22,211 nucleotides of DNA from a virus: positions 1 through 22,211 of the IMG/VR virus record IMGVR_UViG_3300003690_000189; one strand, 5' to 3'. Position 1 is the first letter of the stretch. Every line of letters begins with the position of its first letter. The position numbers and the translations under genes were made by a program. Positions 1 through 21,090 of this stretch are shown piece by piece. Under the pieces are notes generated by a model. It was not told the DNA's origin and searched no databases. It worked only from the letters and a program-made list of their open reading frames with translations.

Positions 1-2112
1 CTTGCTGATGAAGCCAACAAGGTTAAGGAAGCACGGCGCATGGTTGCGGGTGCCGTACAGCTAGGAGAGTACCCTGTCTTACCTCGTAGGCCCAGAGCGC
101 CCACATCTAGGCGCACCTTTACTCAGCTTATTAAGGACGCCAAGTCAGCAAGAAATTATCGAGACTGGTATGAGCGCCATCGTCCTATTCTGCATGAGCT
201 ATTTGGTGATGACATGCAGTTTTTCAACGACATCATATCCATCACCAGTCAGAACAGACGCATTGATATAAATATTGATCTGGCGATGGTGGCTTATGAA
301 GCCATCAAGACAGGCGACACCCTTGACGGTAAGGGTTTGCTCCCTCAGGTGGTAGATAACCTCAATCGTCTCATGGGAAGGTTCCCATCTAGGGAGGAGA
401 CGCTTCGACAAAAGGCAGGTAAGCCACCCTCTAAGTTACCGGGTGGTGGAGTGCGTTATTTCGGGGGCAAGAAAATACCCGACATGATAGAAGCCATGCG
501 TGAGACTCCTGAAACGGTGGTTGTGGACAGGCACATCGCTCAATTGCTTTTCGATAGAGACAGTCCCACGGATGCTATGGTTTTAGAGGCACAGCGTCTT
601 ATCACCAAGGTGGCTAATGAATTGCGTTGGACGCCAATAGAAACACAAGCTGCCCTATGGGCTTTCAACCAAGTAAGAAAAGGAGAGGATCTAGACAATG
701 TCAGAGACTACGAGAAAGAGCTTAGGAAAAGAGCGAGCAGAATCAAAGAACTCGTTAAAAGAGTTCAGGTCACTCAAAGGGCGGGCGCGGGCGTTCGACC
801 TAGGGGCGCAGTTGCTAAAGGGGTTGCAGAAAGAGCTAAAGCAAAAGCCGCTCGCAAAATCATAGGGGTTGGTGACCTCTTCGTTGATGAAAACATAATC
901 GATCTGGAGGCTGTGCGCCAAGCACGAGAACGTGAAAAAATACTCCCTCTGGATGATGAAGCTCCTATGTTGGAACGAGCGCCAGCATATGAATCAGTAA
1001 AATTGCTTGGAGCTTATACTCCAGAGTTCGATGAAGCTCTTCAAAAAATGAGGAGGGATCGCCGCGCTGCGGAGGCACGGGAACTGGAGGGTGAACTCCC
1101 CGGGCATGAGTGGTCCGTTGAGATTGGCGATAAAATTATGACTGAAGAAGGTGCCCGTAAGGGTCAAGCACCTTGGACGGTAACAAGCAGGTTCATTAAG
1201 AAGAAAGGGCTATCTCCAGAGTCGCGGCCTAGACAGGGGTTGGTCATACAAGATGAAAACGTGCCTTACCTGACCGTCTTGATTGATCGAGACGGTGAGA
1301 CATACACGATACCAGAATGGGCTGTTCAAACTAGGTTTACAGGGCCGAAAGCCGCTCGCCCGTTCTATGATATAAGCGATACTCAATACGACAGCCTGCG
1401 CGGCCACGGGATGCGCCTCACTCTCGACCAACGTCCTGACCGGGCGACCTTAACCATACAAAGCGGCGACAACCGCATTGAGGTACGGGGTCACCCTGCT
1501 GTGGGATCACGCTATGAGGGTAGCAGGCTTGACCGCATCATCGACTCGATCCCGCAGATGGCGAACATCTCAGCCCTCTTTGCAGGAGAGACGCGCAACA
1601 TCTCTGCCTCTATGGCAGACCCCATCATCGATGCGTTGGAGCTTGAGGATGAGATCCAGCGTAGGATTTTCTCTTCCAAGGAAGCGCGCTCGTTTATCAA
1701 GGACGAGGAGGGCAGAAAGTCTTTCGAGGAGGCGCGTCAGCGCAACGTCATTGCCGAGGACTTGCGCACACCCAAGTACAGGAAACGGGTGGTGCGTAGC
1801 CGCAAGGGCTACACCCGCAAGGACAAGCACAAGCGTCCCTACCAAGCGGCACGGGCCTTCTCGTTTCAGAACAAGGAAGAGGGTGTTGGTAAGGTCGCGT
1901 TAGGCATGATTGCTCCCCCAGAAACTACCGACGACACGCTTGGAAGCAAGATCTTAACCCATGTTGGGATGCTTGGCGGGGCACCGCTAGATAGTTACAA
2001 GGATTTTTTCAAGTGGTTCCGTACCAGCATGGTCGACATGTGGGATCCCGCGCGTCGGACAGAGGTTGGGCTAGCTGAGAAGGATGCAAAGTTCTGCCTT
2101 GCGCATGGCTAG
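1..2112 (+). CDS. Large virion/ejection protein, upstream part (5' end outside window)
   Basis: The frame is open from base 1, so the gene starts upstream; the first ATG (base 40) is probably internal. About 704 residues are visible, with no signal peptide or membrane segment. The early part (after WYERHRP, through FGDD and ITSQN, to VVVDRHIAQLL) recalls a domain I associate with giant phage proteins. It is followed by a charged, lysine/arginine-rich helical stretch and a segment that reads like a small beta domain (GDKIMTEEGARKGQAPWTV). The last 40 residues (FFKWFRTSMVDMWDPARR) look like the beginning of the helical region that normally runs into an LPD38-type C-terminus, which is found here in the next frame. 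The product is therefore probably a fragment of one internal virion or DNA-ejection protein. The role is inferred from size, position before the holin, and the downstream half. Confidence is high for coding, moderate for role. Confidence 0.8.
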   Translation, partial: LADEANKVKEARRMVAGAVQLGEYPVLPRRPRAPTSRRTFTQLIKDAKSARNYRDWYERHRPILHELFGDDMQFFNDIISITSQNRRIDINIDLAMVAYEAIKTGDTLDGKGLLPQVVDNLNRLMGRFPSREETLRQKAGKPPSKLPGGGVRYFGGKKIPDMIEAMRETPETVVVDRHIAQLLFDRDSPTDAMVLEAQRLITKVANELRWTPIETQAALWAFNQVRKGEDLDNVRDYEKELRKRASRIKELVKRVQVTQRAGAGVRPRGAVAKGVAERAKAKAARKIIGVGDLFVDENIIDLEAVRQAREREKILPLDDEAPMLERAPAYESVKLLGAYTPEFDEALQKMRRDRRAAEARELEGELPGHEWSVEIGDKIMTEEGARKGQAPWTVTSRFIKKKGLSPESRPRQGLVIQDENVPYLTVLIDRDGETYTIPEWAVQTRFTGPKAARPFYDISDTQYDSLRGHGMRLTLDQRPDRATLTIQSGDNRIEVRGHPAVGSRYEGSRLDRIIDSIPQMANISALFAGETRNISASMADPIIDALELEDEIQRRIFSSKEARSFIKDEEGRKSFEEARQRNVIAEDLRTPKYRKRVVRSRKGYTRKDKHKRPYQAARAFSFQNKEEGVGKVALGMIAPPETTDDTLGSKILTHVGMLGGAPLDSYKDFFKWFRTSMVDMWDPARRTEVGLAEKDAKFCLAHG
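2075..2112 (+). other. Frameshift overlap joining the two halves of the virion protein
   Basis: Frame 1 runs to TAG at 2110-2112. The next frame (+1) is open from 2075, just after a TAG at 2072-2074. Skipping a single T at 2092-2093 would turn ...EKDAKFCLAHG-stop into ...EKDAKSALRMARRGTAL, a smooth helical continuation that fits what I know of LPD38-type proteins. No classical slippery heptamer, stop-codon pause or downstream hairpin is evident. A one-base insertion (natural or an assembly error) is therefore at least as likely as programmed +1 frameshifting. Confidence 0.6.
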
Positions 2113-4741
2113 AAGGGGCACCGCTCTGACTGCCTATGCCCTTTCCAAGGGCGTGCCTGTGTATGCCAATGGTTTTTCCTCCGTTAAAGATATTCCCGAA
2201 GATGCGATGCAAACCAACATCGACGGCTCTCTGTCGTCTAGTCCAATCGCTGGTACGCCTACAGGTTTGATACCCATCATAGAACCCCTGCGTGAGGGCA
2301 ACAGGTTCCGTGCTTTCCATGCCTATGCCATCGGGCGCAGGGCAGCGCGCTTGCTGAGAGAGGGTAGGGAGAAGCTCTTAACGCAGGATCAGATCATCGA
2401 GTATCTTGGGTACGGCAACACGCCCCTTGAGATCCAACGCATAATCGGTGACCCAGCCTTAACGGAAGATGCCATTGCGCAAAAGATAATAGCCACGGGA
2501 CAGGATACCTTCCTAGATTTCGATCAGATATTTAAGAACTATCAGGTGTGGAACAGCTACTTCGTAGACTTCTTGGTAGACACGGGGGTTATCGACCGCA
2601 AGAAGGCTGACCAATGGAAAGAGACGGCTGATTACATCCCCTTCTACAGGCAGCTTGAGCCAGACCACAAAGCTGTGCTCGGGGAGACGCAGATATTCAA
2701 CGGCATTACAACCCGGCCTCCTCCCCCTCTCTCTGGCAAGGGAACGATATGGACTATCGTCACAGAGGAGACCATTAACGGAGAGGAGGTAGCTACCCGT
2801 CTTCCAACCACCTTTGAGTCCCATCAGAAGGAGGTAGCAAAGGGTTATGCCAAGAAACTAAAGCAAGAGAACCCCAATCTGAAGGTATCGATAGTGCGTG
2901 GTGGGATGCCTATCGGAGGCTTCCTTGATACTATAACTGAGAATGCTTTAGCTGCCGTACAGACGGGTATGATGAACGTCGGGGTGCAGCGTGTGATGCG
3001 CAACCTTGTCTTGGCGGAGCCTGAGACAACGGTGAGGGCCAAGATCAAGACACCGGGGGCGATAACATTCAGAGTCAAAGGTAAGTCTATGACTCTTTAT
3101 GTGGGAGACAAGGCTCTTTATTCTTCGTTGAGTAACTACCTAAGCAACCAACAGATCCCGCCGTGGGTTAACCTGTTCGGTATGCCAGCCCGTTTCCTCA
3201 GGGAGATGATCACCAGATCACCAGACTTCATGGCCGCCAACATGCTGCGTGACTCGTTGTCTGCATGGGTTACCAGTGGGCGCAATACTGGTGCATTGGC
3301 AGGTACTATAAAGGGCTTCGGCAATGCCTTGCGCGGAGATGAATCGGCTAACGCACTGGCTGCCGCAGGTTTGATGACGGGCTTCGACTTTGGCGGCGAT
3401 CCCACCAAGATGACTACCTTCATAGAGAAGGAGCTTATGAAGTACGAGTATCCTTCCGAGATGAGGCAGGCTATTCGCAACCCATTCAAGTACTTATGGG
3501 ACGTAACCGGCACAGCTTCTCGTGCCTCCGATGCCGCCACCAGAATTGCCGTTTACAATAGGGTATTAAAAGAGACTGGCGATGAGGCGCAGGCTATATG
3601 GGAGGCGCAGGAAGTTATCAACTTCTCGGCCCGTGGGTCTTCTCCCTTAATTCAGAACATCGCTGTCATGGTGCCCTTCTTGAACGCTAGGATACAGGGA
3701 CTCGACGTACTCTATAGATCATCTATGGGGAGGCCCGGCTTTGCTGCACGACCAGAGTCCGATATTGTTAAACGCCGCTTCCTGATGAGGTCATTGCTGG
3801 TAGGAATAAGCAGTGCAGCTTACTGGACTTTGGTGCATGACGATGAGGAATACATCAATCAAAATCCAGAGGTAAAGGACAACTACTGGATCATTCCATC
3901 GTCGTGGATCCCCGGGTATGACGGGCCACCACTGAAGTTCCCCATACCGTTTGAGGTGGGCTTCCTGTTCAAGACCATACCTGAGAGGTTAATGGCTTTG
4001 TTCTTCGGGCAAGATGTACCTCGTGATACGGCGCACTCCCTGAGAAGGGGGTTGGTTAATACGTTCGAGTTCAATCCCATCCCTCAGGCGTTCCTTCCTC
4101 TAGGAGAAGCGCTGGTTAACTATAGTTTCTGGACGGGACGTGAGATCGAAGGGCAATACCTCAAGGGCATTGAGCCGGGGTATCGTTATGCCAGTAGAAC
4201 GTCAGGACTGGCGCGTGAGTTAGGGGAGGCGTTAAATTATTCTCCCATAAAGATCGATCACATGATCAAGGGCTATGGCGGTACGCTGGGTACGGTATTG
4301 TTGGATACGGTGGATGAGGTGGTGCGCTCGGTTGATGATGAACTGGGTGAAACACAGTCTCGCAAGGTTACCGAGTATCCCTTTATCAGGCGTTTCTTTG
4401 CGCGCCCCGATGCTCGTGGTCTGGTGACACAGTTCTACGAACTAAAGGATGCCGTGAGGCAGGCGGTGGGTACTCAAAGTATGCTCGAAAGGGGCGACCT
4501 CACCATCGTTAAGAGTGAGGAGTTTGCTGACAAGAGGGCTGCGTTGCTGGATTTGGAGCAAGAGGTGAATGCTATTGCTCAGATACTTGCTGACTTCAGG
4601 GAGGAGAGAAAGAGTATAATGGAAGGCGACATGTCAGGTACGGAGAAGAGAGCTTTGATTGACGACATTACTCAGGATGAGTTACTGGCTGTACAGGATC
4701 TACCGGCTATGAGACAGGAAGCTTTTCAGATAGGGAGGTAG
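2084..4741 (+). CDS. Large virion/ejection protein, LPD38-like C-terminal part
   Basis: This 885-residue reading frame overlaps the end of the preceding one by 29 bases. Residues about 560-660 carry the features I recognise from large polyvalent protein domain 38: a hydrophobic helix (FLMRSLLVGISSAAYW), then NPEVKDNYWIIP, and a proline/phenylalanine-rich PFEVGFLFKTIPERL segment. Before it lies VPFLNARIQGLDVLYR, also typical. The rest is helical and charged, ending in a coiled stretch. Such proteins are thought to be packed in the capsid and released with the DNA. The ATG at 2084 has AGAAGG directly against it (too close for a normal ribosome site), and the ATG at 2105 has none. Independent initiation therefore looks poor, and continuity with the upstream frame is likely. 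The stop is followed at once by the holin gene. Confidence 0.85.
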   Translation: MQSSALRMARRGTALTAYALSKGVPVYANGFSSVKDIPEDAMQTNIDGSLSSSPIAGTPTGLIPIIEPLREGNRFRAFHAYAIGRRAARLLREGREKLLTQDQIIEYLGYGNTPLEIQRIIGDPALTEDAIAQKIIATGQDTFLDFDQIFKNYQVWNSYFVDFLVDTGVIDRKKADQWKETADYIPFYRQLEPDHKAVLGETQIFNGITTRPPPPLSGKGTIWTIVTEETINGEEVATRLPTTFESHQKEVAKGYAKKLKQENPNLKVSIVRGGMPIGGFLDTITENALAAVQTGMMNVGVQRVMRNLVLAEPETTVRAKIKTPGAITFRVKGKSMTLYVGDKALYSSLSNYLSNQQIPPWVNLFGMPARFLREMITRSPDFMAANMLRDSLSAWVTSGRNTGALAGTIKGFGNALRGDESANALAAAGLMTGFDFGGDPTKMTTFIEKELMKYEYPSEMRQAIRNPFKYLWDVTGTASRASDAATRIAVYNRVLKETGDEAQAIWEAQEVINFSARGSSPLIQNIAVMVPFLNARIQGLDVLYRSSMGRPGFAARPESDIVKRRFLMRSLLVGISSAAYWTLVHDDEEYINQNPEVKDNYWIIPSSWIPGYDGPPLKFPIPFEVGFLFKTIPERLMALFFGQDVPRDTAHSLRRGLVNTFEFNPIPQAFLPLGEALVNYSFWTGREIEGQYLKGIEPGYRYASRTSGLARELGEALNYSPIKIDHMIKGYGGTLGTVLLDTVDEVVRSVDDELGETQSRKVTEYPFIRRFFARPDARGLVTQFYELKDAVRQAVGTQSMLERGDLTIVKSEEFADKRAALLDLEQEVNAIAQILADFREERKSIMEGDMSGTEKRALIDDITQDELLAVQDLPAMRQEAFQIGR

Positions 4742-11277: not shown

Positions 11278-11313
11278 CTTATTCTCCTTACTTTTTACAG
11301 GTGTGTATGTTGC

Positions 11314-11574
11314 TTACGCCTCGTCAACAGACTCTAACTCTGGCTCGCTGAACTCGGCATCAGTAGCATCGTCGTGAAGGATCTTGCCTCCTTCAATCAT
11401 TTCTTCCGTATAGCCAAGATTGAGGAAGTCTTCGACGTAGGACCGCCAGTCAGCGCGATCCTCTGTAGCCAACTCCAGTTCTTCTAAAACCTGTTGCTTG
11501 GTTATACTTACCTCCACCTGCATCGTATGGGTGATGGTCTCCGTTCGGTTAAGTGTTAAAATAAATTTAGCCAT
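11314..11574 (-). CDS. Hypothetical small acidic protein
   Basis: An 86-residue acidic protein. It begins with strands (KFILTLNRTETITHTMQVEV) and continues with helices (ITKQQVLEELELA; WRSYVEDFLNLGY), ending in a strongly acidic tail rich in Glu and Asp. No family is recognised. The ATG at 11574 is chosen because GGAGAGAG lies just upstream; the open frame runs 19 codons further but without a ribosome site. Acidic small phage proteins sometimes mimic DNA or bind host enzymes, but that is only a possibility here. Confidence 0.65.
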   Translation of the reverse strand: MAKFILTLNRTETITHTMQVEVSITKQQVLEELELATEDRADWRSYVEDFLNLGYTEEMIEGGKILHDDATDAEFSEPELESVDEA

Positions 11575-11594
11575 TGTCTCTCTCCATTTAAATC

Positions 11595-11906
11595 CTAAGT
11601 CATCGACACTTTGTTTAAGAAGCGTTGCCACAAACTACGCCTGTTGCGTGTTTCTGTGACTGCGTTAGAAACCATAAGCCTCTCGCCGTGCAGGGTTTGC
11701 GGCTGCATCAACAACTGTTCGGGAGCGTTCCATATGTCTGGGTTCTGCTTACGATGGATCGCGAGGAGCTTGTAGATGTATGCCTCGTTAAGGCCAAACG
11801 CCTGACCCAAACGGGGAATGATCCCCGCCTGTCCCATCGTGCGTTGCTGTAAATAATTTTCTGCGAGAAGCCGGTTGCGGCACTCGCGGTTCTTACGTCC
11901 CTTCAT
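11595..11906 (-). CDS. Small basic helical protein, possible HTH
   Basis: A 103-residue basic protein. Residues about 27-50 (GIIPRLGQAFGLNEAYIYKL) read as a possible helix-turn-helix: a helix, the turn at FGL, and a recognition-like helix. The C-terminus is basic with RNRRSLWQRFLNK. GGGAG lies about 8 bases before the ATG, and the gene overlaps the upstream stop by 14 bases. A DNA-binding role is plausible; no family is recognised. Confidence 0.6.
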   Translation of the reverse strand: MKGRKNRECRNRLLAENYLQQRTMGQAGIIPRLGQAFGLNEAYIYKLLAIHRKQNPDIWNAPEQLLMQPQTLHGERLMVSNAVTETRNRRSLWQRFLNKVSMT

Positions 11907-13773: not shown

Positions 13774-15582
13774 ATGCACTTAGATGACGCTATTAGAGCG
13801 GCCTGTGAGCCGTTTGCTCATCGTATTGAAACCAACATCAGAATCACATGCCCCGAATGCTCACACCGCAGGAAGGGGCGCAACAAACGTGAGCCTGTTT
13901 TAAGTGTATTAATTAAGGAAGACAGGTTCGTATACGACTGTCACCATTGTGACATTAGCGGGTGCGTTCCGTTCCACACCACACCATACCACACCACACC
14001 ACGCCACGATCCGCTGCCCCCTCAGGATATCAAACGCGCCGAGGCTGCGGCACTGGATGATGAGCCTCTTGCTTATCTCGAAACAACCCGACACATATCA
14101 CGGAGCGTTCTCCAGCAATTCGGCGTGTTCTCCACCGAGAAATACTTTCCCAAGCTTGACCGTGAGGTCACAGCCGTTGGATTCCCCTACTTTGAGGGCG
14201 ATCAAATCTATGCGACCAAGTTCAGAGCGGTGGAAGCCAAGGCCCACACCCAGTCGGGGGGAGGCGCGCACACCTTTTTTGGTGAGCAACGCATCAACGG
14301 TGAGACCACCTTGTGTGTTTGCGAGGGAGAGATCGATGCCCTTAGCTGCACATGTGCATTCGAGGAAACGGGTCAGGAGATCAGTGCAGTGTCTGTTCCG
14401 AATGGCGCACCTTCAAAGCTTTCGGACAGGAGGGTTGATCCAAGCGAGGACAAGAAATTTAATTACGTTTGGGAAGCGCGTGAATTATTCGGACGCATGG
14501 AGAAAATAGTTTTAGCGACGGACGGGGACGCGCAAGGTGACGCACTTGCTGAGGAACTCGCCAGAAGAATTGGGAAGGCTAAGTGCTGGCTGGTAAGATG
14601 GCCTCCCGACTGCAAGGACGCCAACGATGTGTTGGTCAAGCACGGTGCGGAAGCCCTGTCGCAAGCGATCACCGATGCGGTTCCCTATCCTCTTAGCGGC
14701 CTTAATACCGCCGATCATTATTCAACTGAAGTCGATGACCTCTATCGTAAGGGTATTGTTGGCGGCGAAAGCACAGGCTTCCCGACTCTGGATGACATGA
14801 TCACTGTCAAGACAGGGCATCTGTCTGTGGTCACAGGTATCCCGTCGAGTGGCAAGAGTTGTTTCTTGGATGCCGTGATGGTCAACTTGGCACGGAGTAG
14901 GTCGTGGAAATTCGCGATATGTAGCTTTGAGAACGACCCGGCAACCCACATAACCCAGTTGATAGAGAAGTTTACAGGCAAACCTTTCTTCGACGGCCCC
15001 ACACCACGCCTAAACGAACAGGCGTTGAGAGAGGCCAAGGATTTCATCGCCGATCATTTTGTTTTCATTGACTACAATGAGGGGGAGAAGGCCACGCTTT
15101 CCAGTATACTTGAGCGAGCGGGCGCGGCTGTTCAACGAATGGGCGTGCGCGGGCTGATCATAGACCCCTATTCCTACATCGCACTCCCCAACAAAGATAA
15201 GTCAGAGACACAGCAGATAGCAGACATGCTCACCGACGTGCGTATGTTCGCCAAGCTGCACGATATCCATGTGTGGTTCGTCGCCCATCCCGCTAAGATG
15301 AGGCGGGAGGAAGGTAGCGTCCCAGTTCCTAAGGGCTACGACCTGAGTGGTAGCGCTCACTGGTATAATTTTGCTGACACCGGCATCACGGTGGCACGCT
15401 TCGATGACACCAAAGAAGAACGTGAGCGTGTAAAAATTATCTGTTGGAAACAGCGCTATCGTTGGTTAGGATCTCAGGGAGAACGTGTCCTTGACTTCGA
15501 CCTCCCATCCGGCTGTTACTATGAGGAGAAGAATGAGGTTAGCGAGTGGGTTAAAGAAGAATCTTGGTGGAAAGATCTCTGA
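13774..15582 (+). CDS. Primase-helicase, T7 gp4/Twinkle type
   Basis: A 602-residue bifunctional replication protein. The N-terminal zinc-binding domain has C26-x2-C29 and C56-x2-C59. A TOPRIM core follows with Glu in CVCEGEIDAL (about residue 184) and the D-x-D in VLATDGDAQGD (about 247-251). The RecA-like helicase domain has Walker A GIPSSGKS (355-362), Walker B LIIDPYSY (about 461) and the histidine in VAHPAK. It would lay down primers and unwind the fork as a hexameric ring. The linker after the zinc domain contains an odd HTTPYHTTPRH run encoded by a CCACA repeat. AGGAG lies seven bases before the ATG. Next to it lies a DUF6456-like gene. Confidence 0.93.
   Translation: MHLDDAIRAACEPFAHRIETNIRITCPECSHRRKGRNKREPVLSVLIKEDRFVYDCHHCDISGCVPFHTTPYHTTPRHDPLPPQDIKRAEAAALDDEPLAYLETTRHISRSVLQQFGVFSTEKYFPKLDREVTAVGFPYFEGDQIYATKFRAVEAKAHTQSGGGAHTFFGEQRINGETTLCVCEGEIDALSCTCAFEETGQEISAVSVPNGAPSKLSDRRVDPSEDKKFNYVWEARELFGRMEKIVLATDGDAQGDALAEELARRIGKAKCWLVRWPPDCKDANDVLVKHGAEALSQAITDAVPYPLSGLNTADHYSTEVDDLYRKGIVGGESTGFPTLDDMITVKTGHLSVVTGIPSSGKSCFLDAVMVNLARSRSWKFAICSFENDPATHITQLIEKFTGKPFFDGPTPRLNEQALREAKDFIADHFVFIDYNEGEKATLSSILERAGAAVQRMGVRGLIIDPYSYIALPNKDKSETQQIADMLTDVRMFAKLHDIHVWFVAHPAKMRREEGSVPVPKGYDLSGSAHWYNFADTGITVARFDDTKEERERVKIICWKQRYRWLGSQGERVLDFDLPSGCYYEEKNEVSEWVKEESWWKDL
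13974..14008 (+). repeat. CCACA pentamer repeat inside primase-helicase gene
   Basis: Seven head-to-tail pentamers: CCACA, CCACA, CCATA, CCACA, CCACA, CCACG, CCACG. They encode a His/Thr/Pro-rich linker between the zinc domain and the TOPRIM part. A second run of four units lies at 15804-15823 in the next gene, and a partial copy at 15703-15717. Confidence 0.85.
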
Positions 15583-16293: not shown

Positions 16294-16518
16294 TCATTCA
16301 GTCGCCTTTCGATCCTCTCGGATCACCTCAGCGATAGGTACCAAGGTGAAGTTTCCCTCAGCGTTCACGGTAGCCTTAATGTATCCATCGTCGTGAAGCT
16401 GCGAGAGGATGCAATCAACGGCGCACTCAGCAAGCTGACGCTTTGCTACAAATGCACCGCCGTAATAGGCAGCGGCCAATGCGGCCACTGCCAACAAGGT
16501 ATGCAGTATGGGGTCCAT
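16294..16518 (-). CDS. Small membrane protein
   Basis: A 74-residue protein with one N-terminal membrane helix at about 5-24 (LHTLLAVAALAAAYYGGAFV) followed by a basic turn and a soluble domain (LAECAVDCILSQLHDDGYI, then a beta stretch NAEGNFTLVPIAE) that may be cytoplasmic. AGGAGG, an excellent ribosome site, lies just upstream. The start overlaps the end of the preceding 69-residue gene by a few bases only through the leader. Function unknown; a membrane partner for the block 4 proteins is one possibility. Confidence 0.7.
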   Translation of the reverse strand: MDPILHTLLAVAALAAAYYGGAFVAKRQLAECAVDCILSQLHDDGYIKATVNAEGNFTLVPIAEVIREDRKATE

Positions 16519-16728
16519 TCACTCCTCCTCTTTGTTGTGGACCGATCCCCGACAAGAGGGTGACTGTATCCCTCCGGGGAACTCACTATTAATTTGGCGC
16601 AACGGCTGGCCGGTTTTCTGCTGATAGAGAAAAGCCCACGCCATCCACCGTTGACCCGCTGAATAGTTGGCGGGGTTGGCGGCGATGGTCACCGCCGTCC
16701 GCCGCCATGTTTCGATGGTACGCCTCAT
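16519..16728 (-). CDS. Small basic protein of unknown function
   Basis: A 69-residue protein. It begins RRTIETWRRTAVTIAANPAN, has an aromatic-rich middle (QRWMAWAFLYQQKTGQPL) and ends in a basic-then-acidic tail (SVHNKEEE). A membrane anchor is not clear. The ATG overlaps the stop of the preceding 298-residue gene (ATGA), and the ribosome site of the next gene lies within its last codons. No family is recognised. Confidence 0.6.
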   Translation of the reverse strand: MRRTIETWRRTAVTIAANPANYSAGQRWMAWAFLYQQKTGQPLRQINSEFPGGIQSPSCRGSVHNKEEE

Positions 16729-17686: not shown

Positions 17687-17710
17687 GCGCCCGGGGTTTC
17701 CCCCGGGCGC
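17687..17710 (-). terminator. Strong GC hairpin after the VWA gene, possible attenuator
   Basis: GCGCCCGGGG-TTTC-CCCCGGGCGC is a perfect ten-base-pair stem with a four-base loop. It begins seven bases after the stop of the VWA gene (17717). No run of U follows, so it is not a standard intrinsic terminator. It could slow polymerase, protect the 3' end of the upstream message or be an RNase III site, lowering expression of the downstream four genes. Confidence 0.5.
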
Positions 17711-17716
17711 ACTACT

Positions 17717-19069
17717 TCAAGCAACCTTGTCGAGCTTTATTGTCTCTCCCCATGGGGCCACTGCATCAGTGGTCGAGACCCACACGACCGCATAGTCAGG
17801 TTCGTCTGGAAAGCTGCATTCCAAATCGCTCAAATAGATGAAGGTGTCAACGTCAAGGCCGTTGTCCTCGACATAATCGAAAGGCGGACGAAAGTCTGTA
17901 CCGCCGCCGCCGTAACGACCCAAGTCGCGCTCTTGGATTTGCGATGGGTCTTCAAACGTGTCGACGTGAGCGATGCGGCTGTCGCAATATATGACAGTCA
18001 CCTCGTCGGCATCGACATCAGAGCAGATGGCTTTTAACTCAGCCATCAGCGCTTGGTATTCGTCTTGGCGTACACTTGCTGAGGTGTCGACCGCAACAAC
18101 GATGTTGCCGCTGCCGTCTGGTGTACGACGGGCAGCAAAGAGGCCACGACGAACTGCTTTCTTGTCGAGGCGAGTCCAATCGTTGCGATAGTCAGAGCCA
18201 CGCCCAAGAATGCGGGCCAGCTTTTCCCGCCAATCGATGACGGCATCGCGCAATGTCTTAACATACTCCGCGATGCTGGCTGGCAACTTACCGCGAGACT
18301 TTGCGTTTTGTGCGTCGTTGTGAATTTCTGACGCCAACTCGCGCTCTGCCTGAGACAGTTCAGAACCGCTCAGGCTCTCGCCGTCATCGTCCTCAGCATC
18401 GATGACGATTCCGGTGCCGCCGACATCTTCAAAAGGATCGGAACCTTCGCCGCCACTAGTCTCGCCAGTGTCGGCACCTTCGCCGTCACCCGTCTCACCA
18501 GTGTCGCCGTCGTCGCTGTCTTCGCCGTCGTCGCTGGTTTCTCCCGGCTGGTCGCCGTCGTCGCATGGTTCTCCCGGCTGGTCGCCGGTCTCGCCGTCGT
18601 CGCCGTCCTGACCTTCATCATCGCTATCGTCGCCGGGACCGGCATCGCCTTCATCACCTTCTCTCCCGGGGTTCTTACCCTGAGGAACCAAGGCGTCGTA
18701 CAAAGACTCTGTGGTGTATTCGTTGTCCTGTTTTGGCAGGTCATATCCTTCCGCCCTTAGAGAGGCGAACGATATGTGACCTGACGGCAACGTGAAACGC
18801 TCCTTGATAGCGTGCCAATTGATGACGCCATCACCGGCAAGATTCCAGAAGTGAGGGTCACGAGTGCCGCGCCGTAAGTGGTGGAACATCCAGATGTGAG
18901 CGCCTTCATGCCACAGGACGCCTTTCAAAAGGTCAGGGGTATTTAGCACGTTTGTCAGGTAGTGAGGGTTGACAAAGAGGTGCGTTCCATCGACGCCCAA
19001 AGTCGGCAGGGCGTCGGTGAAGATTGTCTTCATCCTCAGCAACCGAAAGCCGGTAAAGGGATGGGTCAA
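17717..19069 (-). CDS. VWA/metallopeptidase-like protein (DUF2201 type)
   Basis: A 450-residue protein. The N-terminal part has the family PF start (HPFTGFRLL), then a HExxH zinc site at residues 54-58 (LWHEGAHIW) and FWNLAGDGVIN, typical of the DUF2201 putative metallopeptidase domain. Residues about 130-240 form a strongly acidic Gly/Asp/Glu linker built of repeats such as DDGDQPGE. The C-terminal VWA domain has the metal-binding DTSAS (about 326-330), the threonine in GGGGTDFR (near 387) and SDLE (near 409). This family pairs with MoxR ATPases, which here ends in the TTG start of this gene (TTGA overlap). Such pairs act as chaperones or assembly factors. ATG 19033 is an alternative but would remove the PF start. 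Confidence 0.85.
   Translation of the reverse strand: MTHPFTGFRLLRMKTIFTDALPTLGVDGTHLFVNPHYLTNVLNTPDLLKGVLWHEGAHIWMFHHLRRGTRDPHFWNLAGDGVINWHAIKERFTLPSGHISFASLRAEGYDLPKQDNEYTTESLYDALVPQGKNPGREGDEGDAGPGDDSDDEGQDGDDGETGDQPGEPCDDGDQPGETSDDGEDSDDGDTGETGDGEGADTGETSGGEGSDPFEDVGGTGIVIDAEDDDGESLSGSELSQAERELASEIHNDAQNAKSRGKLPASIAEYVKTLRDAVIDWREKLARILGRGSDYRNDWTRLDKKAVRRGLFAARRTPDGSGNIVVAVDTSASVRQDEYQALMAELKAICSDVDADEVTVIYCDSRIAHVDTFEDPSQIQERDLGRYGGGGTDFRPPFDYVEDNGLDVDTFIYLSDLECSFPDEPDYAVVWVSTTDAVAPWGETIKLDKVA
18539..18587 (-). repeat. Direct repeat within the acidic linker
   Basis: Two 19-base copies (plus strand TTCTCCCGGCTGGTCGCCG) at 18539-18557 and 18569-18587, 30 bases apart, each coding for part of a DQPGE unit. 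The surrounding 18400-18690 is rich in GTC/GCC codon repeats of the same sort, as expected from repeat expansion. Confidence 0.8.
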
Positions 19070-21090
19070 TAGAACCTTGATCCTGTGAAGCCAGCCAACT
19101 TGGCGGCAAGGTCAGCCGCCTCAGACTGTACGGTTTCCACAATATCGGAAGCCTCAGGATCCCTGAAGGTTTCGACATCGTGCTTGAGCAATTCGCTGTC
19201 GCGAATTTCGTTGATCACCGCCGCGAGTTGCGGATCTTTCTTGATGTTCAAGGCATCGCCAATTTCAACGAGATCGGCGAGGTTGGTGATCATGGAATCG
19301 AATAGACGCCGTGACGGTTCGTTCTTGTACTTGCCGCCAGACTTGCGCACACGGGTAACAGAGAAGCCGGTGAGGCACTCGTTTATGTGAGCCACTGCCT
19401 TGAGAAAACGGCTGACAGTTTCGTCGTGACCGGCATCGGCGCACTGGACATTAGATTCGTCCATCGCGATTGCTATCTGGCTCTTTACCTCTTCATCGAC
19501 GATGTCGGCAATGAGGTCGCCAGACTGCCCGATTGGGCGGGGCGTCCACTCGAAACCATAGAGGCTGTCGAGATTGTCCAAGTGAGAGTAGTCAGCCTCA
19601 TTGAACATTCCGTTGAGTTGCTGACGCCGGGCGTTGATGAGACCGGGCAAGCGCTCTTTCAACTGCTCGACTTCATCAGTAAAGCGTGAGCGCGCGCCGT
19701 CCATCTTCTCGTTATACGCTTCAAGCAATTCAATCGGCAGATAGCGGAAGCCATCCTTGCCGAAACCCACTGTGAAAAAATCGTGGATTGCGCGAGCGGC
19801 GCGAGCGGCCTTTTGAGGTCCGTCGACATCGCGAGGGTCGAGAATGTTTTTGTCGTACTTACCGGCATTGCCGGTCGCGCCGTGTTCGTTGTTCACTTTG
19901 TCGGTGATGGCGCGATCCTTCCTTGTGTACCCGGCGCAATTGATGTGCACCGAAACGAGGATGCCGTTCTTTGCTAAAGCTTCACTCATTGTGATCCTCC
20001 ATTCGAGTGTTTCATGGATACTGCCAATCTTCAGTCGAGCTTCTAGCTCGATACACTCGCGCCCCGGGTCGATAGTGATGCGTGGCTTGCCGTCAGCCTT
20101 CAACGCCTCGTTTCGAGTCTTGATAGCTGCTTCCGCGACCGGATGCAGTTCTACGGGCAGACGCTTAACATAGACGCCAAGCGCTTGAGCCGTCTTGGGA
20201 GTGACTGCTGCGACAAGAGAACTGACCATCGCAAAGCAACCATCGATGGCTGGCTCGCCATCCTTGGTCGACGGGATGGGAGATGTCTCAGGATTGGCGA
20301 ACACCTTAGTGGGCGGTGTCAGCGAATCAGCGAGCCTTTCAAAGCCACAAAATTTAGCGGCTTCCTCGACGCCGATATGCCCGGCGATCAACACCGACTT
20401 GACGGTATCGGTGAAGGCTCCCCACAGTATATCGGATACCGCTACCCATGAACGGGGAGACGGGAACGGCGTGCCGTCTTGAACGTGCCGGTGAAGGCTG
20501 TCGTTACTGAACGCAAGATAGCCAGACACCACAGGGTGCACGCCGATCTTGGCGAAGTGGGTCAGGGTCGCGTCGAGTTCTGCTTCGACCTCGACTATGG
20601 TGAAACGGCTTACGACCTGTTCTGGCATGGCACGCACGTTCGCGCGGTCTTCCTTACGATTGCCATTGGCAACGATAAGGCAATCATCGGGCAACCGATG
20701 CCCGGCGCAGCGGCGGTCCCACAGGATCTGCGTGGCGGCGGTTTGGACATCCTTGTCGCACTGAGGAAATTCCTCAAACACTAACAGGGTCTTTTTCCCT
20801 GCCTCAGCAGCGGTCAGGATCCTGACGAGCCAAGCCGGTTTGAGCTGGGCCATCTGGTCACCGACTTGGGTAACCCAACCGGCAACCTCAGGTGGCTGAA
20901 AATTTATGAGGTTAACAACCTCGACATACCAGCCAAGGGCCTTGGCAACGGCAATTGCGATCTGGCTCTTGCCGACACCGACAGGGCCAAGGACAATCAG
21001 GGTCTTGCCGTATACGGGATGGTCTTCCTGAAGCTTGGCTTGCGCGACGATAACGTCAGGCAAGTCTTTCATGCTAACTAAATTTCTCAT
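19066..21090 (-). CDS. MoxR-type AAA+ ATPase
   Basis: A 674-residue protein. The first third is an AAA+ module: Walker A GPVGVGKS (35-42), the NFQPPEVAGW segment, Walker B LLVFEE (102-107), sensor 1 LIVANGN (138-144) and an arginine in VVSRF (162). This is the MoxR pattern, in which the ring-shaped ATPase works on a complex through a VWA partner; the partner is encoded directly downstream with a four-base overlap. The remaining 450 residues are mostly helical with no recognised domain, unusually long for a MoxR protein and probably for substrate contacts. The gene starts the operon with a hairpin followed by TGAGAGAGAGAG, five bases before the ATG. Confidence 0.87.
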   Translation of the reverse strand: MRNLVSMKDLPDVIVAQAKLQEDHPVYGKTLIVLGPVGVGKSQIAIAVAKALGWYVEVVNLINFQPPEVAGWVTQVGDQMAQLKPAWLVRILTAAEAGKKTLLVFEEFPQCDKDVQTAATQILWDRRCAGHRLPDDCLIVANGNRKEDRANVRAMPEQVVSRFTIVEVEAELDATLTHFAKIGVHPVVSGYLAFSNDSLHRHVQDGTPFPSPRSWVAVSDILWGAFTDTVKSVLIAGHIGVEEAAKFCGFERLADSLTPPTKVFANPETSPIPSTKDGEPAIDGCFAMVSSLVAAVTPKTAQALGVYVKRLPVELHPVAEAAIKTRNEALKADGKPRITIDPGRECIELEARLKIGSIHETLEWRITMSEALAKNGILVSVHINCAGYTRKDRAITDKVNNEHGATGNAGKYDKNILDPRDVDGPQKAARAARAIHDFFTVGFGKDGFRYLPIELLEAYNEKMDGARSRFTDEVEQLKERLPGLINARRQQLNGMFNEADYSHLDNLDSLYGFEWTPRPIGQSGDLIADIVDEEVKSQIAIAMDESNVQCADAGHDETVSRFLKAVAHINECLTGFSVTRVRKSGGKYKNEPSRRLFDSMITNLADLVEIGDALNIKKDPQLAAVINEIRDSELLKHDVETFRDPEASDIVETVQSEAADLAAKLAGFTGSRFY

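Follow-up and report, generated by a model that had tools for sequence, protein, structure and literature searches.

We analyzed a 22,211-nucleotide stretch of viral DNA (positions 1 to 22,211 of IMG/VR record IMGVR_UViG_3300003690_000189; hereafter, the window), in which a preliminary description made from the sequence alone had pointed out a MoxR-type AAA+ ATPase gene followed by a gene for a VWA protein. The minus strand at this locus carries two open reading frames (ORFs) encoding 674 and 450 residues, the latter with a TTG start, and the previously reported overlap of four bases between them is confirmed. The real unit of the locus is a cassette for (i) a MoxR ATPase, (ii) a DUF3150-type protein, (iii) a peptidase-VWA protein, and (iv) a 298-residue protein, termed P3 (Table 1).

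Table 1. Positions of the cassette components, their motifs, and adjacent features in the window
Feature	Coordinates	Strand	Remarks
Primase-helicase	13774..15582	+	Beside the cassette, on the opposite strand; PHROG 239, 5.7e-84
74-residue ORF	16294..16518	-	Matched in L004 alone among the relatives compared
69-residue ORF	16519..16728	-	Downstream of P3; blastp matches in L003, L004, L009
P3	16725..17621	-	298 residues, no family match; N-terminal part helical, C-terminal part beta-rich, C-terminal helix conserved
Perfect GC-rich hairpin	17689..17708	+	Between the VWA gene and P3; none in 100 shuffles
DUF2201-type protein	17717..19069	-	450-residue ORF; N-terminal zincin metallopeptidase domain, acidic linker of ~100 residues, C-terminal VWA-like domain with MIDAS
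MIDAS DxSxS, D328-S332	18074..18088	-	Completed by T391 and D415
HExxH zinc-binding motif HEGAH, residues 54-58	18896..18910	-	97% in 39 distinct relatives, with N76/D80/N84
674-residue ORF	19066..21090	-	Apparent fusion of the three features below
DUF3150-type protein	19066..19989	-	307 residues, M368 to end; separate ORFs in L003-L006, L008-L010, L013
Translated intergenic spacer	19990..20076	-	Fusion linker, ~26-29 residues; DNA aligns with the non-coding L013 spacer
MoxR-type AAA+ ATPase	20077..21090	-	Residues 1-~338 of the 674-residue ORF; AAA_5, PHROG 1297, and conservation

The N-terminal half of the 674-residue protein is a member of the MoxR class of AAA+ ATPases. It contains a P-loop domain (Pfam AAA_5, PF07728, 4.7e-7, spanning residues 31-129) with the Walker A motif GPVGVGKS, the Walker B motif VFEE, the sensor-1 residue N144, and the arginines R162 and R213, and the protein matches PHROG 1297 (4e-53). 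The 450-residue protein is a member of the DUF2201 metallopeptidase/VWA-like family, as it contains both the HExxH and the metal ion-dependent adhesion site (MIDAS) domains; it matches DUF2201_N (PF13203, 2.7e-30), the VWA-like DUF2201 domain (PF09967, 3e-22), and PHROG 1314 (1e-71), and the initial 15 positions of the DUF2201_N profile are absent from the window copy. Among the relatives from the contigs fetched in the present analysis, to which all conservation percentages apply, G40, K41, N144, R162, and R213 are conserved in 100% and E107 in 97% of 46 MoxR proteins, and the MIDAS residues D328, S330, S332, T391, and D415 in 100% of 39 distinct VWA proteins. The key residues listed in the preliminary description are thus retained and 97-100% conserved, with the Walker B motif reading FEE instead of DE. 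On the basis of its motif, the VWA protein is probably a zinc peptidase.

The members of PHROG 1314 carry the label 'HNH endonuclease', which looks wrong for DUF2201 proteins: neither the window VWA protein nor gp25 of phage N4 has a Pfam match to an HNH nuclease domain, and both match solely DUF2201_N and DUF2201. The label 'HNH endonuclease' or 'homing endonuclease' was observed on DUF2201 metallopeptidase/VWA proteins in many phage records, for example on N4 gp25 (L099:2165-3307). A search by sequence for relatives of solved structure yielded no MoxR or VWA chain (the best match of the VWA protein, E 0.003, was judged to be chance), the window protein P0001 used as the sole query had no match among viral contigs, and no Rfam family or tRNA was found.

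The long C-terminal extension of the ATPase, originally described as a 450-residue extra region of this protein, consists instead of a translated spacer and a DUF3150-type gene. A native long ATPase was rejected, since the extension is a neighbouring gene that is separate in relatives. MoxR and the second protein are encoded separately in all eight relatives in which the junction was read, a count that omits L002 (a repeat of L003) and L007 (where the contig stops within the second gene); the MoxR proteins have ~349-371 residues (up to 400 in the L008 ORF) and the second proteins ~302-323 residues. In the distant phage MinM2, the MoxR and DUF3150 genes are also separate, with one further gene in between. 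In the sister phage L013, whose primase is 98.5% identical to that of the window, a stop codon and a spacer part MoxR from the second gene. In the DNA alignment with L013, the window is missing 91 bases at ~20077 that cover the MoxR end and stop codon, and its MoxR lacks ~20 C-terminal residues that L013 has. The window frame continues through the spacer-matching DNA into the second gene. A second gap relative to L013, of 172 bases at ~19085, takes the end of the second gene, the spacer, and the VWA N-terminus (~30-35 residues); this deletion gives rise to both the TTG start and the overlap of four bases.

Either a natural deletion or an assembly fault could lie behind both junctions. That the window copy is damaged or misassembled, and that neither the fusion nor the short VWA protein is a functional form, is a distinct possibility, although we consider it the less probable state of affairs; it is compatible with the other readings discussed below. 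Two apparent deletions fall within one operon, exact-sequence searches for either junction retrieved no other viral contig, so that both are unique to one metagenomic contig, and hairpin sequence lies at the first junction, where all relatives have separate genes. This explanation is weakened by the reading frames, which stay open past both deletions, by the retained active-site residues, and by the second gene, which still has its internal ATG (M368) and a Shine-Dalgarno-like ribosome site, GGAGG. The fused protein should not be counted as a natural architecture without supporting reads.

Assignment of the second gene to DUF3150 is supported indirectly, by profile and fold homology. Its own sequence has no match to PF11348 (DUF3150) up to E 5. 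A hidden Markov model of the window family matches proteins in L029-L032 and L038, at up to 4e-31 (L032), and the L032 protein reaches PF11348 at 5e-5, just below the Pfam cut-off. The MinM2 homolog, annotated as DUF3150, has 24% identity to the window protein (5e-17). An AlphaFold2 model built from 21 sequences (mean predicted local distance difference test score, pLDDT, 86.6) found as its best viral Foldseek match the DUF3150 protein A0A6J7WV52 (2e-15, template modelling score 0.74/0.79). The same model had no match in PDB at E <= 0.001, the best E value of the DUF3150 profile against solved structures was 0.008, judged to be chance, and our literature search found no paper on DUF3150. The DUF3150 protein is a probable third component of the cassette.

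P3 directly follows the VWA gene throughout the clade of the window, in agreement with the co-occurrence that the preliminary description had proposed to look for. It has no Pfam or PHROG match and no match in sequenced phage records. A gene near the VWA gene in 29 other contigs represents one family, the last ~76 profile columns of which align to the P3 C-terminus (hhalign 93.6%, 2e-7). The structure model of P3 is of low confidence (mean pLDDT 69.5) and had no match in PDB. Since a conserved C-terminal tail stands here beside an unfoldase-type machine, we conjecture that P3 is a substrate or an adaptor of this machine. The hairpin upstream of P3 is followed by a second small palindrome. In L013, GC-rich hairpins were observed both at the corresponding VWA/P3 position and in the MoxR/DUF3150 spacer (13833-13853 and 16376-16396); the hairpin was seen in the window and L013, and not in other loci.

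The cassette recurs in diverse phages and plasmids. It had been assumed that MoxR-VWA pairs mainly belong to cells; this is not supported, as tblastn searches retrieved 237 phage records for the VWA protein and 616 for the ATPase. A phage-borne pair with a peptidase motif is supported. The DUF3150 alignment alone pulled out 14 viral loci outside the window's clade (L111-L124, including duplicates), 13 of which have a MoxR or VWA gene within ~8 kb, most of them both, in varied gene order; at the remaining locus, L121, neither is near. In L112 (8001-8885), a DUF3150-type match near MoxR and VWA genes is interrupted by an in-frame stop. Plasmids of Cupriavidus, Paraburkholderia, Burkholderia, Variovorax, and Rhodovastum carry MoxR, a DUF3150-family gene (mostly annotated as hypothetical), and VWA in this order. 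The triads of these Burkholderiales plasmids and of Synechococcus phage MinM2 contain three components in the window's order, but as separate genes, and the plasmid- and MinM2-type triads surveyed (L012, L101) have no P3 homolog by profile. Several plasmid triads adjoin conjugation, replication, or partition genes; on two plasmids, of Paraburkholderia and Burkholderia (L133, L134), type IV secretion genes come directly after the triad. The MoxR/VWA pair occurs without an intervening gene on Synechocystis pSYSA and on a Sphaerotilus plasmid. When genomes were scanned with the DUF3150 alignment, a search restricted by a single peptide pattern, two Pseudovibrio contigs only were returned. In L029 (15301-15972) and L030, a gene near VWA, whose family is also present in L031, L032, and L038, weakly matches the PARP catalytic domain (PF00644, 5e-4, below the cut-off).

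The pair belongs to a tailed phage. A chromosomal flank of a prophage, one of two findings that had been named as refuting a phage-borne pair, was rejected: a 61-kb contig of a sister phage repeats the gene order, and a terminase-small-subunit-like gene follows (PHROG E 0.001). The other, a homolog with a settled role, was not found in the literature for any homologous pair, in line with the earlier view that no function is established, though the pair itself has been described in jumbo phages (PMC7824862) and in N4-like phages (PMC4193335). No paper on schitovirus MoxR was found, and the CRISPRi-ART text has no entry for MoxR or 'phage N4'.

Comparison of the window with L013 revealed that the divergence is greatest in the cassette. 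Nucleotide identity per 500-base bin is 90-99% at 3.7-16.0 kb, 55-76% at 16.0-21.0 kb, and 85-92% beyond. Synonymous divergence (dS) exceeds 2 or is saturated for MoxR, DUF3150, VWA, and P3, as compared with values of 0.10 (primase) and 0.23 (exonuclease). Thus, the low identity and high dS of the cassette relative to its flanks are best explained by joint replacement of the four genes through recombination, an exchange of the complete block that was observed in this one pair. The cassette is under purifying selection, with ratios of nonsynonymous to synonymous divergence (dN/dS) <=0.25 where defined (DUF3150 0.25, VWA 0.09, P3 0.11; undefined for MoxR). In two other sister pairs, L003/L004 and L050/L054, MoxR and the P3-type gene likewise diverge beyond the primase, and VWA does so to a lesser degree. 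The window and L013 differ locally at a second place, where a segment of ~300 bases (window 11288-11605) is missing from L013.

Whole-cassette exchange between close relatives is typical of variable host-facing genes, and MoxR and P3-like genes outdiverge the primase in all three sister pairs. Together with the presence of the cassette in both phages and conjugative plasmids, this would suit host takeover or counter-defence, in which a host complex such as a defence system, a polymerase, or the envelope would be taken apart or cut by the machine. We consider this function somewhat unlikely, as the core status of the pair in N4-like phages and the presence throughout cyanomyoviruses are more in line with a housekeeping role, and as the cassette is under purifying selection. 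The PADLOC library also gave no match, which is weak evidence, since it collects defence systems. Pfam searches of P0001-P0003 and the small ORFs detected none of the third components of the MoxR-vWA ternary conflict systems (VMAP, iSTAND, FtsH, or beta-propeller).

Among the targets listed in the preliminary description, replication has the best contextual support. We propose, with about even confidence, that the cassette encodes an ATP-driven remodelling, probably proteolytic, machine of the replication or recombination phase that acts on a nucleoprotein complex; assembly into a complex, the direction in which it acts, its proteolytic activity, and its target are what we infer here. The circumstantial evidence for replication is the neighbourhood of the pair in replication modules. 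In the window, the cassette adjoins the primase-helicase gene. Of the 44 primase-type contigs that extend 6 kb or more downstream, 36 have a MoxR gene beside the primase-helicase, and 31 have a DUF2201 gene as well. Replication or recombination genes lie near the pair in LIT1, CRP-7, RHph_TM3_14A, phiFa, and MinM2, records that were found by the pair itself; in N4, replication genes are located at some distance from it. Genes of this kind also adjoin the CobS/'peptidase' counterpart in cyanophages, as described below. In a tally of 70 neighbours of DUF3150 genes, DNA polymerases were the commonest family. Several observations weigh against this proposal: (i) the 44-contig count is biased, as the contigs were fetched by their primase and some are near duplicates, (ii) virion genes adjoin the pair in Escherichia phage PBECO4, (iii) neither replication nor virion genes are near the pair in Bacillus phage G, (iv) conjugation genes are near the plasmid copies, (v) the 70-neighbour tally also holds terminase and portal genes, and (vi) no experiment on the target of any homolog was found.

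The PBECO4 arrangement also favours a role in virion assembly or maturation, in which the machine, as a chaperone-protease, would fold structural proteins and process them, by analogy with p618/p892 of the archaeal virus ATV, where the virion protein p618 binds its VWA partner p892 (PMC4124505). The MoxR and metallopeptidase-vWA pair was reported in group 2.2 jumbo phages in 2021, and virion assembly was proposed there (PMC7824862); both proteins share the domain architecture of the window proteins, and the relevant passage of that report mentions no DUF3150 component. In addition, the ATPase of phage PA5oct (L097:2945-4060) bears an 'ESI-MS/MS' note, possibly a sign that it was detected in virions. 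Nevertheless, virion assembly appears unlikely, because gp24/gp25 of N4, core genes in the N4-like group, belong to the middle class and have no homologs among the listed virion proteins of RPP1/RLP1 (PMC4193335), the same triad occurs on conjugative plasmids, and many homologous pairs are located in replication modules. N4 gp24/gp25 (PHROG 1297/1314) resemble the window pair in having a MoxR ATPase followed by a DUF2201_N and DUF2201 protein, but sequence identity is low, the window-derived profile finds no DUF3150 gene between them, and gp25, of 380 residues, lacks the long acidic linker of the window VWA protein. In the window itself, an 885-residue protein (2084-4741) contains a large polyvalent protein domain (LPD38, 9e-34).

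A possible mechanism of the proposed replication-phase machine is suggested by cellular systems, NorQ-NorD, RavA-ViaA, and CbbQ-CbbO, in which a MoxR ring and a VWA partner remodel a target and, unlike in the window, the targets are known. To our knowledge, none of these systems has a zinc-peptidase domain. In NorQD, the VWA partner inserts a finger into the MoxR pore, and the linker that joins its VWA domain to the N-terminal domain is twisted and stretched upon ATP hydrolysis (PMC13036017). The window VWA protein shares with NorQD the order of N-terminal domain, linker, and VWA, its N-terminal domain being a predicted zinc peptidase. Based on this precedent and the matching domain order, the MoxR hexamer may grip the VWA domain, as in solved MoxR-VWA complexes, while the MIDAS site holds the target. 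ATP hydrolysis would then shift the VWA domain and strain the acidic linker to the zinc peptidase, which would act on the target, perhaps cleaving it. The third subunit would be the helical DUF3150 protein, in the role of an adaptor or regulator. P3 would join as the fourth partner and may be either a substrate or an adaptor specific to the target.

At the same locus, five contigs (L051, L069, L083, L084, and L092) have a longer ATPase in the MoxR position. The L084 ATPase, the sole one of the five scanned, matches CbbQ_C and PHROG 249, the phage CobS family. The partners in L051, L069 (weakly), L084, and L092 match CobT-type VWA profiles; the L069 partner lacks HExxH, and in L083 two partner ORFs bear HExxH and DxSxS by motif reading. 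In Roseobacter phage CRP-810, a CobS-CobT pair is located close to the genome start, in the position of the MoxR/VWA genes of CRP-7, and the 'peptidase' neighbour of cyanomyovirus CobS contains HExxH and DxSxS. Both motifs align across S-CAM8, S-PM2, P-SSM2, S-CAM7, the CobT proteins of Ochrobactrum phage OC and CRP-810, L051, and L092. These pairs resemble the window pair in combining a MoxR-class ATPase with a protein bearing N-terminal HExxH and C-terminal MIDAS, but form a distinct subfamily with CbbQ_C, CobT_C, and PHROG 249/459. In tblastn searches, CobS and 'peptidase' had equal record counts in each group (365 Synechococcus, 61 Cyanophage, and 24 Prochlorococcus); their adjacency was read in four cyanophage records and phage OC.

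The replacement of the DUF2201 pair by CobS/CobT-like pairs, together with their annotation, could indicate a metabolic chelatase that inserts metal into a tetrapyrrole. This function is very improbable for the window proteins, which have no Pfam match to CbbQ_C or to CobT/CobT_C and no metabolic neighbours; moreover, cyanophage CobS itself sits among recombination and clamp genes. The recombination nuclease gene gp46 is upstream of CobS in all four cyanophage records read (L140-L143), and the clamp gene gp45 comes after it in S-CAM8 and S-PM2, the stretches of P-SSM2 and S-CAM7 stopping before that point. Phage OC (L144) has the same order, with the clamp gene. We tentatively suggest, with rather less than even confidence, that N4 gp24/gp25, the jumbo-phage pair, the MoxR-DUF3150-peptidase cassette, and cyanophage 'CobS'/'peptidase' are versions of a single remodelling protease that is associated with replication, and can stand in for one another.

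Whereas the pair was already known, descriptions of the DUF3150 component, the block exchange, or the CobS/CobT equivalence were not found in a limited literature search. MoxR-VWA-peptidase pairs belong to the core of N4-like phages and occur in hundreds of phages sequenced to date, but are masked by the 'HNH endonuclease' label. The present analysis adds a recurrent third component, DUF3150, shows that the cassette genes can move together, and suggests that their function should first be sought in the replication module. If the proposed equivalence is true, cyanophage cobS, usually listed as a cobalamin gene, would be a part of a replication machine, and a widely cited auxiliary metabolic gene would need re-examination.

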